From: Tridacna crocea
Taxonomy: Eukaryota > Mollusca > Bivalvia > Cardiida > Cardiidae
Reading direction: 5' to 3'
DNA: 64,000 bases
Assembly (NCBI GenBank): GCA_943736015.1
Contig: OX031057.1
Coordinates: 43,920,501 to 43,984,500, forward strand
Part shown: piece by piece, positions 51,640 to 60,012 of the stretch
Layout of the letters: each line of letters begins with the position of its first letter
How positions within the stretch are numbered: the first letter of the stretch is position 1
Position numbers and translations under genes: made by a program
Notes under the pieces: model-generated
Seen by the model: only the letters and a program-made list of their open reading frames with translations
What the model was told of the DNA's origin: nothing
The model's database searches: none

Positions 51640-51932
51640 ATTCATTGATTGATTGAATTTGCGTTTATTTATTTTCGCCACCGGTTGCCCAGGTGGGGAA
51701 CGCTCCCTGAAGGCTGTTAGTATTGTTACGTGGGATAATGCAGATACAGGACGAAACCCATCCTAATTTACGTCTGGTTCTTTAACGAGCTCGGTGTATA
51801 GCAACGTAACATAGGACCTCGGTTTAATGTCTCATCTGAAAGACTATTAGTAATTTTGGAAATGGAACCCACAACCTCAAGTGACCCGAAAAATCACGTT
51901 CACTCCACTAATTGAGCTATGCGGGCTGGTCA
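51640..51932 (-). mobile_element. tRNA-derived SINE
   Basis: Read on the minus strand it begins GACCAGCCCGCATAGCTCAA (A-box region) with GGTTGTGGGTTCC as degenerate B box. The 3' part includes GTTGCTATACACCGAGC and GCCTTCAGGGAGCG. The TRIM is inserted beside its 5' end. Confidence 0.65.
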
Positions 51933-51939
51933 ATACACC

Positions 51940-52089
51940 TGTAGCCGGGTACAGGTTTGGTGATATATCGTATGGCCGTATCGACATGTGGTTCGGTAGC
52001 TCAGTTGGTTAGAGTGCAGGAACGGTATTCCTGAGGCCCTGGGTTCGAATCCCGGTCGAGCCGCGATATATTTTTCACCACCTGTTACA
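51940..52089 (+). repeat. Left LTR of the TRIM
   Basis: Starts TGTAGCC and ends CTGTTACA. Includes the tRNA unit at 51990-52063 and a T5 run at 52071-52075. Identical to 52212-52361 as read base by base. Confidence 0.9.
51990..52063 (+). tRNA. tRNA-like gene in left LTR, anticodon GGT (Thr-type)
   Basis: Full cloverleaf. Acceptor GGTTCGG/TCGAGCC, D stem GCTC/GAGT, anticodon stem CAGGA/TCCTG, loop ACGGTAT (52022-52028, anticodon GGT at 52024-52026), 5-nt variable loop, T arm CTGGG TTCGAAT CCCGG, discriminator G. A box TAGCTCAGTTGG (51997-52008) and B box GGTTCGAATCC (52042-52052) match the Pol III consensus, and T5 follows at 52071. Odd points: position 33 is C instead of U, and GGT is an anticodon animals normally do not use for Thr. 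It may therefore serve as a Pol III promoter or RNA module and not as a decoding tRNA. Confidence 0.75.
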
Positions 52090-52091
52090 TT

Positions 52092-52103
52092 TGGCACCCA
52101 CCG
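52092..52103 (+). promoter_or_regulatory. Candidate minus-strand primer binding site
   Basis: TGGCACCCACCG starts 2-3 nt after the left LTR, with TGG pairing to a tRNA CCA end. The implied primer tRNA 3' end (CGGTGGGTGCCA) does not match the 3' end of the tRNA unit inside the LTR. Confidence 0.65.
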
Positions 52104-52199
52104 TAAATAATCCACGATGTGGATGGCTACTGCTTAGGCACCTCGAGAACGTTTCACAATGTTTCTCTGTCTCCAGAATTCGGGACGAATTCTAAATTC

Positions 52200-52207
52200 G
52201 GAGGGGG
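52200..52207 (+). promoter_or_regulatory. Candidate polypurine tract
   Basis: GGAGGGGG lies four bases before the right LTR, the position expected for plus-strand priming. The intervening TATA makes the exact priming end uncertain. Confidence 0.6.
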
Positions 52208-52211
52208 TATA

Positions 52212-52361
52212 TGTAGCCGGGTACAGGTTTGGTGATATATCGTATGGCCGTATCGACATGTGGTTCGGTAGCTCAGTTGGTTAGAGTGCAGGAACGGTAT
52301 TCCTGAGGCCCTGGGTTCGAATCCCGGTCGAGCCGCGATATATTTTTCACCACCTGTTACA
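52212..52361 (+). repeat. Right LTR of the TRIM
   Basis: Identical to the left LTR. Followed by (A)CACCG, which repeats the bases before the left LTR. Confidence 0.9.
52262..52335 (+). tRNA. tRNA-like gene in right LTR, anticodon GGT
   Basis: Exact copy of the unit in the left LTR, with the same A box, B box and downstream T5 run. The same C33 and GGT oddities apply. Confidence 0.75.
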
Positions 52362-52382
52362 CACCGTTTGCTTGTTAAGGAT

Positions 52383-52574
52383 AGGGTCCTAGTGTGGATT
52401 CCTGTAACATCGCTTCTGATCGCCGCAAGTCGTATAGATTCGGTTAAGACTCAGGTAATCCGTAATCGATCGGCCGATAGATGCTGGTTCACGGCATCAT
52501 TTACGAATTACCCGAGTCTTCGCCGAATCCGTACGATGGAAGCCGATGTTACACAAATCCCATTACGGTGCCCT
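52383..52574. repeat. Imperfect long inverted repeat (foldback)
   Basis: Left arm 52383-52465 and right arm 52501-52574 pair with some gaps. The best stretch is GATTCGGTTAAGACTCAGG... against its complement around 52501-52529, with about four mismatches in 29 bp. The loop is 35 nt (52466-52500). It lies 17-22 bp beyond the TRIM and belongs to no other family in the window. Confidence 0.6.
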
Positions 52575-53545: not shown

Positions 53546-53752
53546 TATTAGGCTACTAAGCGCGACTCGCTGATCTTTTGCGAACAGTATAGATCAAGAT
53601 CAGACTGCACAGAACGTGCAGTCTGATCTTGGATCTACACTGTTCGATAAGGAGATAGTATTCACTAAAACATAGCTTTGAAACAGAAATATTGCGGTTT
53701 TTATCGTCAAATTAAAATTTGTTTTTAGTTATTTAGCATGATAAATGTAAAC
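53546..53752 (+). mobile_element. Family F MITE with long palindrome
   Basis: AGTATAGATCAAGATCAGACTGCAC...GTGCAGTCTGATCTTGGATCTACACT, about 53589-53641, near-perfect. Left block AGGCTACTAAGCGCGACTCG. Followed directly by an HPA relic. Confidence 0.85.
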
Positions 53753-55757: not shown

Positions 55758-56198
55758 TTAACCCCTATCCTGCTAAATAACTAAAATTAACCATTTACCA
55801 AACGACAAACTTTTAGACTGGTCGGAATTGAAAGCAGTTGCAGACGACAAATTAAATGTAACTCAAACATTGAAATTTGTATATGATAGGGTAGAAAACA
55901 TTGTGGGAAAAGGAGAAAATGCTGGTTACCAGCATTTTCTCCTTTTCCCACAATGTTTTCAAAAGGCTTCTATCTCAAGGTCGTAAAAACCAGGGATTGT
56001 TTGGGAAAGGATTTATTGAATCAGTAGTTCGGTATTAATAACTTAAATATTAGTATTTCAAAATTATGGTTTCGGGAATAATATCTCCTTATCGGACAGT
56101 GTAGATTCAAGATCAGACTGCACGTTCTGTGCAGTCTGATCTTGATCTACACTGTCCGCAAAAGGTCAGCCAGTCGCGCTTAGCAGCCACGGGGTTAA
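55758..56198 (-). mobile_element. Family F MITE interrupted by HPA
   Basis: TTAACCCCTATCCTGCTAAATAAC at the left; GGACAGTGTAGATTCAAGATCAGACTGC and complement (about 56096-56160), CAGTCGCGCTTAGCAGCCACGGGGTTAA at the right. The HPA copy sits at an internal TTAA. Confidence 0.88.
55787..56014 (+). mobile_element. HPA MITE with perfect 33-bp arms, nested in family F
   Basis: 55894-55960 is a perfect inverted repeat of two 33-bp arms and one central T, the most exact palindrome in the window. Confidence 0.94.
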
Positions 56199-56465: not shown

Positions 56466-56737
56466 TAGGTTGTATTGATTGTATTGGGGTTTAACGCCAC
56501 TTTAACAGCTAAGGTCATATCATGGCGGTCGGTGACGCACATGTGTTTCCTGGCTTTTTCACACCGGTACTTACACTACTTTCTTTCCAAAGCCACCGAC
56601 TACTTTTCTCACATGCTTCAGCAGAGGTGAGAGGCGAAAATACGCCGGAAAGAAAGTTCGCCTCAACCGGGCATCGAACTCACAACCACCAGGTCATGAG
56701 TCTGACACGCTTACCACTGAGCCACCCGGGCGCAAGT
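56466..56737 (-). mobile_element. tRNA-derived SINE S2 (minus)
   Basis: Minus-strand reading: GCCCGGGTGGCTCAGTGGTAAG (A box), GGTTGTGAGTTCGATGCCC (B box), TTTCTTTCCGGCGTATTTTCG, GTTAAAGTGGCGTTAAACCCC and CAATACAATCAATACAACC tail. Confidence 0.85.
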
Positions 56738-57494: not shown

Positions 57495-57795
57495 TGCCCA
57501 GCCCGAGTAGCTCAGTCTGTAGCGCACAGGACTTGAGAACGGGAGGAGGGTGTCGTGGGTTTGATCTCTGGCTCGGTCAAAGTCATTGTGATAGGATTCA
57601 TTCTTCTCCCGCCGCTGACTATTATTTCGATGGTTATGGTGATGGTGACCTGGGAAAGCAGTCAGTGACTTGGAAAGAAAATTGTGCGAGGTAATGGTAC
57701 AAGAGATTCCAGGAAAGCACGGACAGGTGCACTGGCCCCCGGGATATAACTGAAATATTGTTGAAAACGGCGTTAAACACCAAACAGTCGGTCAA
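57495..57795 (+). mobile_element. tRNA-derived SINE with conserved 3' block
   Basis: GCCCGAGTAGCTCAGTCTGTAG (A box), GTCGTGGGTTTGATCTCTGG (B box). 3' part CCCGGGATATAACTGAAAT, TGTTGAAAACGGCGTTAAAC, ACCAAAC. Confidence 0.85.
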
Positions 57796-57828: not shown

Positions 57829-58095
57829 CGCCCGGTTGGCTCAGTGGTGAGCTTGTCGGACTCATGACCTGGTGGTTGTTAGTTCGATACCCGATTGAGG
57901 CAAACTTTCTTTCCGGCATATTTTCGCCTCTCACCTCTGCTGAAGCATGTGAGAAAAGTAGTCAGTGGCTTTGGAAAGAAAGTAGCGTAAGTACCGGTTT
58001 TAGAAAGCCAGGAAACACATGTGCGTCATCGACCGCCATAATATGACCTTAGCTGTTAAAGTGGCGTTAAACCCCAATACAACCAACCAACCTGC
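57829..58095 (+). mobile_element. tRNA-derived SINE S2 (plus)
   Basis: CGCCCGGTTGGCTCAGTGGTG (A box), GTTGTTAGTTCGATACCCG (B box), body and GTGGCGTTAAACCCCAATAC tail as in the minus copy at 56466. Confidence 0.87.
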
Positions 58096-59747: not shown

Positions 59748-60012
59748 GACTTGCAACGCGCGAAAAAGGACATTTGGACATTTGCGTAAAGTGTCGTCTC
59801 GAATCAGACTGGGCAGTTTGTGCAGGCTAATCCGAGGCGACATTTTACGACTGCATTAGATTTTGAGCTACGGAAGACTTGCGCGAAACAGATAATTGCA
59901 TAACAACGGAAAGTGTCGTTTCGGATCAGCCTGGGCGGACTGCGCAGGCTGATCCGAAATGGCACTTTACGCAGATGTCCGAATGCCCCTTTTCGCGTGT
60001 CTCATGTCATAT
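59748..60012. mobile_element. Family D MITE
   Basis: CTTGCAACGCGCGAAAAAGGAC / CCCCTTTTCGCGTGTC ends; two palindromes, the second (TTTCGGATCAGCCTGGGCGG and complement) best kept. Confidence 0.85.

Follow-up and report, generated by a model that had tools for sequence, protein, structure and literature searches.

At issue at this locus is what kind of element is formed by two identical repeats, each enclosing a tRNA-like unit, in the 64,000-nt stretch of Tridacna crocea contig OX031057.1 that we analysed (the window), and how such an element might be transcribed and primed. A preliminary description, made from the letters of the window, had proposed an animal miniature LTR retrotransposon (TRIM) that had recruited a tRNA, and this proposal was borne out by dispersed copies, 4-bp duplications, solo LTRs, a PBS and a PPT, and boxes A and B. 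We consider it likely that the window element belongs to the Helenus kind of TRIM, encodes no protein and inserted only recently; in this view the tRNA-like unit would serve as a Pol III promoter, Gypsy-type machinery would act in trans and tRNA-Lys would prime reverse transcription. The element is organized as follows.

51936-51939, no strand: left target-site duplication CACC (window sequence; duplication count across copies)
51940-52089, + strand: 5' LTR, 150 nt, TGTAG...TTACA (100% identical to the 3' LTR; ends common to other copies)
51990-52064, + strand: tRNA-like unit of the 5' LTR (ARAGORN tRNA-Thr(GGT); Rfam RF00005, 54.8 bits)
51997-52008, + strand: putative A box TAGCTCAGTTGG of the 5' LTR (window sequence; relaxed A box in 73/83 LTRs)
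52042-52052, + strand: putative B box GGTTCGAATCC of the 5' LTR (window sequence; GGTTCGANTCC in 70/83 LTRs)
52071-52075, + strand: T5, resembling a Pol III terminator, ahead of the PBS (T5 or longer in 77/83 LTRs)
52090-52211, + strand: internal region, 122 nt, non-coding (ORF listing; comparison of copies)
52092-52104, + strand: PBS-like TGGCACCCACCGT, tRNA-Lys(CTT) type (11/13 nt complementary in the window copy)
52200-52211, + strand: polypurine tract GGAGGGGGTATA, adjoining the 3' LTR (conserved among copies)
52212-52361, + strand: 3' LTR, 150 nt (identical to the 5' LTR)
52262-52336, + strand: tRNA-like unit of the 3' LTR (ARAGORN tRNA-Thr(GGT); RF00005, 54.8 bits)
52343-52347, + strand: T5 of the 3' LTR, predicted 3' end of the template RNA (sequence; putative end role)
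52362-52365, no strand: right target-site duplication CACC (window sequence; duplication count across copies)

The two repeats lie at an offset of 272, the whole element is 422 nt long, and no ORF of at least 110 aa was found across it. Repeats of 149-150 bp and a target duplication of 4-5 bp had been suggested earlier. The identity of the repeats and the presence of a duplication stand; the size of the latter is exactly 4 bp and not 5, and the repeat length is 150 nt in the window copy and 2 nt more in 81 of the 83 aligned LTRs, the sole LTRs without the 2 extra nt being both LTRs of the window copy. The PBS-like and PPT-like sequences said to lie inside the repeats are both present and both conserved among copies. 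A tRNA unit with A and B boxes followed by T5 was likewise recovered in each LTR by ARAGORN, by RF00005 (gathering score 29) and by the boxes and T-run of the copies. We take TAGCTCAGTTGG and GGTTCGAATCC to be the A and B boxes from the consensus of such boxes.

Across the 31 contigs (1.05 Gb) of the host genome, 48 matches to the whole element were recorded, a lower bound because scoring covered 40 of the 849 first-look candidates. Among them 46 are long and 91-100% identical, almost all spanning both ends, which argues that the window element is not a chance pattern. Searches with the LTR alone and with the internal region yielded 1154 and 235 first-look candidates, respectively, of which 40 were scored in each case. 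The long matches fall into 40 loci, comprising 87 LTR pieces and 50 internal pieces, and these constitute the copy survey, in which the window copy is locus L009. An exact 4-bp duplication flanks 27 of the 37 LTR-to-LTR chains (shuffled-flank mean, 1.2), a 5-bp duplication flanks none, and 10 chains have no duplication. Two pairs of loci with common flanks, L020/L021 and L015/L041, are probably duplicated loci, and merging them gives 25/35 chains with a 4-bp duplication. The window copy is the sole locus of the 40 with two identical LTRs; in the rest, 1 to 18 mismatches separate the first LTR from the last, not counting gaps. Beyond this set, L094 also has two identical LTRs. Five further TRIM pieces (L122, L123, L128, L129 and L133) have long flanks and the same altered PBS in common, and a larger repeat probably carried them along when it was copied.

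The window copy and its relatives in the 40 loci form subfamily A. A second subfamily, B, was found among the best-scoring LTR matches; its LTRs are 187-195 nt long, with extra U3 sequence, its interior is different from that of A, and 8 of its 9 two-LTR copies have 4-bp duplications. The 18 LTRs of these nine copies contain T5 in 17 cases and T4 in one. Nine further loci (L115, L124, L144, L145, L146, L148, L152, L157 and L158) form family C, whose LTR end and PBS resemble those of the window element partly because of the way the loci were picked, these two parts having been the search bait. The tRNA-like unit and the T-run of family C lay outside the bait. This unit differs from that of A; RF00005 scores above the gathering score in 6/9 loci, and a T-run of T4 or longer is present in 7/9, with T3 in L157 and none in L124. 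Two chimeras, L147 and L151, combine a subfamily A-like LTR with the interior of family C, a structure expected from template switching.

Conservation was assessed in 83 nearly complete LTRs of the 87. The major letter has a mean share of 0.99 in T5, 0.97 in the tRNA-like unit, 0.98 in the LTR end that follows T5 and 0.95 upstream, values so high across the whole LTR of young copies that selection on a promoter is not separable from recent spread. Both boxes in relaxed form together with T4 occur in 61/83 LTRs. ARAGORN made 82 tRNA calls across the 40 loci; the anticodons varied, Thr(GGT) accounting for 65 calls. The anticodon loop could be parsed in 66/83 LTRs and contains C33 in 60 and U33 in 5. 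tRNAs working in translation have U33. As C33 occurs in most units, we read the tRNA-like unit as one that may act as a promoter, and not as a tRNA gene. Folded alone, the unit is no better than shuffled sequences (z -0.25; 77/200 equally good), and the whole 150-nt LTR, folded as RNA, is beaten or matched by 2/200 shuffles (z -2.86), in a fold that favours a long hairpin over a free cloverleaf. With arms at window 51952-51970 and 52064-52085, the LTR forms an imperfect inverted repeat that encloses the tRNA-like unit, a shape not evident by eye in family C.

We infer that the window element is transcribed by Pol III. The tRNA-like unit would recruit TFIIIC and Pol III, and transcription would start near 51985; a minority of transcripts would get past the T5 in the 5' LTR and end at the T5 in the 3' LTR. 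This would give an R region of ~90 nt (tRNA-like unit and trailer), with a U3 of ~45 nt and a U5 of 14 nt. Gypsy-type machinery acting in trans might package the RNA; tRNA-Lys would prime the first strand, followed by a jump between the R copies, the second strand would be primed at the PPT, and integration would proceed with a 4-bp stagger. Since the T-run is located between the tRNA-like unit and the PBS, most Pol III transcripts should end in the 5' LTR and be of no use as a template, and a Pol III template must therefore read through the first LTR.

The same arrangement, with T5 ahead of the PBS in 77/83 LTRs, speaks for the strongest alternative, namely that the TRIM is transcribed by Pol II, as coding Gypsy elements are, and that the tRNA-like unit is a passenger (an old SINE or tRNA insertion) kept because the copies are young. 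The spread of conservation across the whole LTR also fits this. Against it, family C has a different tRNA-like unit, with T4 or longer behind it in 7/9 loci, a 14-nt U5 would leave scant space for a poly(A) signal, and boxes A and B are reported to be conserved across Helenus families in the part of that description available to us (PMC10886601). We therefore regard transcription by Pol II as unlikely and prefer the Pol III promoter.

It is very improbable that the unit is a SINE or a tandem repeat merely resembling an LTR element. Three LTRs in a row occur at 5/40 loci (L014, L020, L021, L022 and L029), and a tRNA head is a feature of SINEs, but the TG...CA ends, exact 4-bp duplications, PBS and PPT largely refute this explanation, as do solo LTRs with target duplications (L107, L108 and L110). 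The preliminary description had named a unit confined to tandems or SINEs, or lacking PBS and PPT conservation, as grounds for abandoning its reading; rows of three LTRs are confined to the 5 loci listed, and PBS and PPT are conserved. It had also suggested a search for solo LTRs and other TRIM copies, and both were found in the host genome; solo LTRs L101 and L111 have no target duplication. Empty target sites, a further check it proposed, were seen as paralogues for solo LTR L108 only, where relatives of the target run unbroken across the joint, the best being a 28-nt exact match at window 53616-53643. Least credible of all is a tandem duplication of two real tRNA genes, for although ARAGORN and Rfam call both units tRNA, the dispersed copies with target duplications refute it, and the prevalence of C33 and the varied anticodons (65 GGT in 82 calls) tell against it as well.

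A coding partner was also sought. Among the 43 matches to LTR end plus PBS described below, ORFs behind the PBS were listed for L112-L121 (1.5 kb each) and reach 126 aa at the longest. The larger coding relative with the same ends, for which a search had been advised, was not found, the lone candidate being two same-strand LTRs 6.4 kb apart on contig C18 (L094), which was rejected as an autonomous relative.

G000:C18:38409800-38417200, strand not given: L094, 556-nt repeat pair and GGTG duplication

The repeat pair inside L094 is foreign, 100% identical and flanked by its own 4-bp duplication GGTG, and the candidate is a Gypsy element nested in a subfamily B TRIM. Its PBS is presumably of the tRNA-Pro type. 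The inserted element is recent, and by eye its frame encodes gag, protease, integrase and then RT and RNase H, an order known from Gmr1-like elements. An autonomous partner may exist within this genome. For animal Helenus elements, a Gypsy helper is likewise inferred from the duplications and the PBS in the available part of the published account (PMC10886601).

The PBS is complementary to tRNA-Lys(CTT). The 3' end of the host tRNA-Lys, GGGTTCGAGCCCCACGTTGGGCG, was found exactly 5 times in the genome; two of the five genes were read, both were called Lys(CTT), and neither is followed by CCA. In the window copy, 11/13 PBS positions pair with the end of mature tRNA-Lys, leaving two mismatches. 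Among 44 internal regions of subfamily A the commonest form (21/44) matches at 12/13, and 7/44 match at 13/13, as do eight of the nine two-LTR copies of subfamily B. In family C the match is 16-18/18, with 18 in L115 only. Some LTRs, described next, are followed by tRNA-Lys sequence that includes TGG, the complement of CCA; as CCA is absent from the two genes read, this points to tRNA-Lys(CTT) itself as the primer.

The genome also contains LTRs joined to reverse-transcribed tRNA-Lys sequence. When up to 2 mismatches are allowed, a pattern made of the LTR end and the tRNA-Lys complement over 18 nt matches the host genome 43 times, and its reversed control has 0 matches. We sorted 41 of them, leaving out C2:62361938 and C7:1405663. 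In five loci (L112, L117, L119, L126 and L118) the LTR and the 18 nt are followed by other sequence; the LTRs are complete at their start, apart from L118, in which the LTR is truncated and the 18-mer doubled. All 18 nt match in L112, L117 and L118, 17 in L119 and 16 in L126. Three loci have longer tRNA stretches: L132 (64/69 aligned), L113 (68/76) and L121 (44/45), the last situated behind an end other than that of the tRNA-bearing LTR. The alignments of L132 and L113 score 59 each, and the top control score in 1000 window stretches is 32. Three joints are inverted (L116, where part of the interior is kept too, L131 and L149), and in fifteen loci the remaining TRIM interior continues behind a tRNA-type PBS. 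The remainder are the odd joins L125 and L155, the nine family C loci, the two chimeras, L097, which is a variant of subfamily B, and one unrelated match, L154.

Past the 13th position the A and B interiors continue with AAAT, and hence GGGGC in these joints is best explained by the tRNA, just as TGG beyond the LTR end is best explained by its CCA. In L117 and L126 the next two letters, TC, also fit the tRNA, which places their end point anywhere from 18 to 20. On the right, L112, L117, L119 and L126 have flanks that resemble neither one another nor the TRIM pieces compared; an inverted LTR piece lies ~0.8 kb from L126. An exact 4-bp duplication is absent at these four loci, the left and right flanks being CAAT/CATT, TCAG/TCTG, ATAG/AAGA and ATTT/TCAA, respectively, with agreement at 3/4 letters in L112 and L117.

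In retroviruses, m1A58 of the primer stops reverse transcriptase, and yeast Ty1 cDNA is known to be captured at breaks. We lean somewhat towards the view that plus-strand strong-stop DNA, the product of half-finished reverse transcription, was inserted naturally at L112, L117, L119, L126, L132 and L113, with a primer copy ending at the m1A58 block and no clean 4-bp duplication at the joint. Such DNA would comprise a whole LTR, begun at the PPT, and 18 nt of primer copy. Because a match to the bait required most of the 18 nt, shorter ends would go undetected, and only the lack of a longer extension is informative. The LTR + 18-nt ends may instead reflect an inherited tRNA-type PBS followed by deletion, and the fifteen loci that carry such a PBS together with the interior make this plausible. 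An origin by insertion beside tRNA-Lys genes was also considered and rejected: the insertions carry TGG, and CCA is absent at the two genes read. If the strong-stop reading is true, a genome can show which mature tRNA primed a non-coding retroelement. The LTR + tRNA-Lys joints add sequence evidence, over and above the likeness of the PBS, as to what primes an element of the Helenus type. No published genomic insertion of this type was found among the literature matches listed, and the available part of the Helenus description contains no mention of LTR + tRNA-Lys insertions (PMC10886601).

This kind of element is already in print. Helenus (TRIMp3; Kojima 2024) is a TRIM of 311-1263 bp with tRNA-derived sequence in its LTRs (PMC10886601), and among the literature matches listed these names occur only in that paper. 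As far as the available part of the account goes, the window element has every Helenus feature that could be tested, the likeness being one of description rather than of published family sequences: two LTRs and no coding capacity, a length (422 nt) within the range, boxes A and B in a tRNA-derived stretch of each LTR, a tRNA-complementary PBS just inside the 5' LTR, a PPT closing the internal region on its 3' side and, as in the animal families, 4-bp target duplications (27/37 chains; 8/9 in subfamily B). Bivalve PBSs there include tRNA-Lys, seven bivalve families are predicted to encode tRNA-Thr, and Pol III transcription is said to be unvalidated (PMC10886601). The molluscan families are named from five orders of Pteriomorphia, with their origin inferred there (PMC10886601), whereas the giant clam belongs to Tridacninae, within Imparidentia; either these elements date back further in molluscs than was inferred, or they were transferred or originated independently. 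In line with this placement, COX1 of the mitochondrial contig C31 is 94% identical over 86% to a protein cluster named for Tridacna derasa, the next being Lymnocardiinae at 80%. What is added here is the Imparidentia host, two subfamilies and a family C with a different tRNA-like unit, the LTR + tRNA-Lys insertions, and the T-run ahead of the PBS, which sharpens a question for the whole kind, i.e. whether the template comes from read-through or from another polymerase.

The analogy with plant Cassandra, drawn from the window sequence at the outset, is the same one drawn in print for Helenus (PMC10886601). In the available part of its description, Cassandra is likewise a TRIM with a Pol III-type promoter, and also a terminator, in the LTR, but derived from 5S rRNA; it forms tandem arrays and multi-element transcripts, presumed to read through LTRs (PMC7215508). 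In the window LTRs, Rfam at gathering scores finds tRNA only, and no 5S rRNA-derived sequence. Ajax, as described in the part available, is an animal TRIM with a Pol III-type LTR promoter as here, but 5S rRNA-derived, from two nemerteans, and with 5-bp duplications (PMC10886601). The bivalve biv-TRIM, present in heterodont species too, also has solo and tandem forms and differs, according to the accessible part of its report, in its terminal repeats of 202-218 bp, the PPT GGGGAGA in most cases and the lack of a clear PBS (PMC6934838). Its conserved inner segment, TGATCCCAAAGGAC, as given there, is absent from the window element at up to 2 mismatches and has one match in the window, with 2 mismatches, at 59915-59928.

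Several other repeats were observed in the window. By eye, SINE-like tRNA heads are located at 51877-51932 (- strand; the window TRIM is immediately upstream of this one), 56650-56730 (-), 57497-57575 (+) and 57830-57900 (+). Derivation of the LTR tRNA region from a SINE of the window was rejected, since its best match at any other place in the window is not significant (E 0.22). At 52396-52560, beginning 35 nt beyond the 3' LTR, lies a fold-back whose 17-nt arms are 88% complementary, and a palindromic dispersed repeat around GATCAGACTGCAC occurs at 53580-53640, 56100-56160 and other positions, solo LTR L108 being inside one copy of it. Outside the window, the mitochondrial contig C31 (L061-L063; 29,009 nt) contains an open COX1 frame of 624 codons, with a start longer than in the listed relatives.
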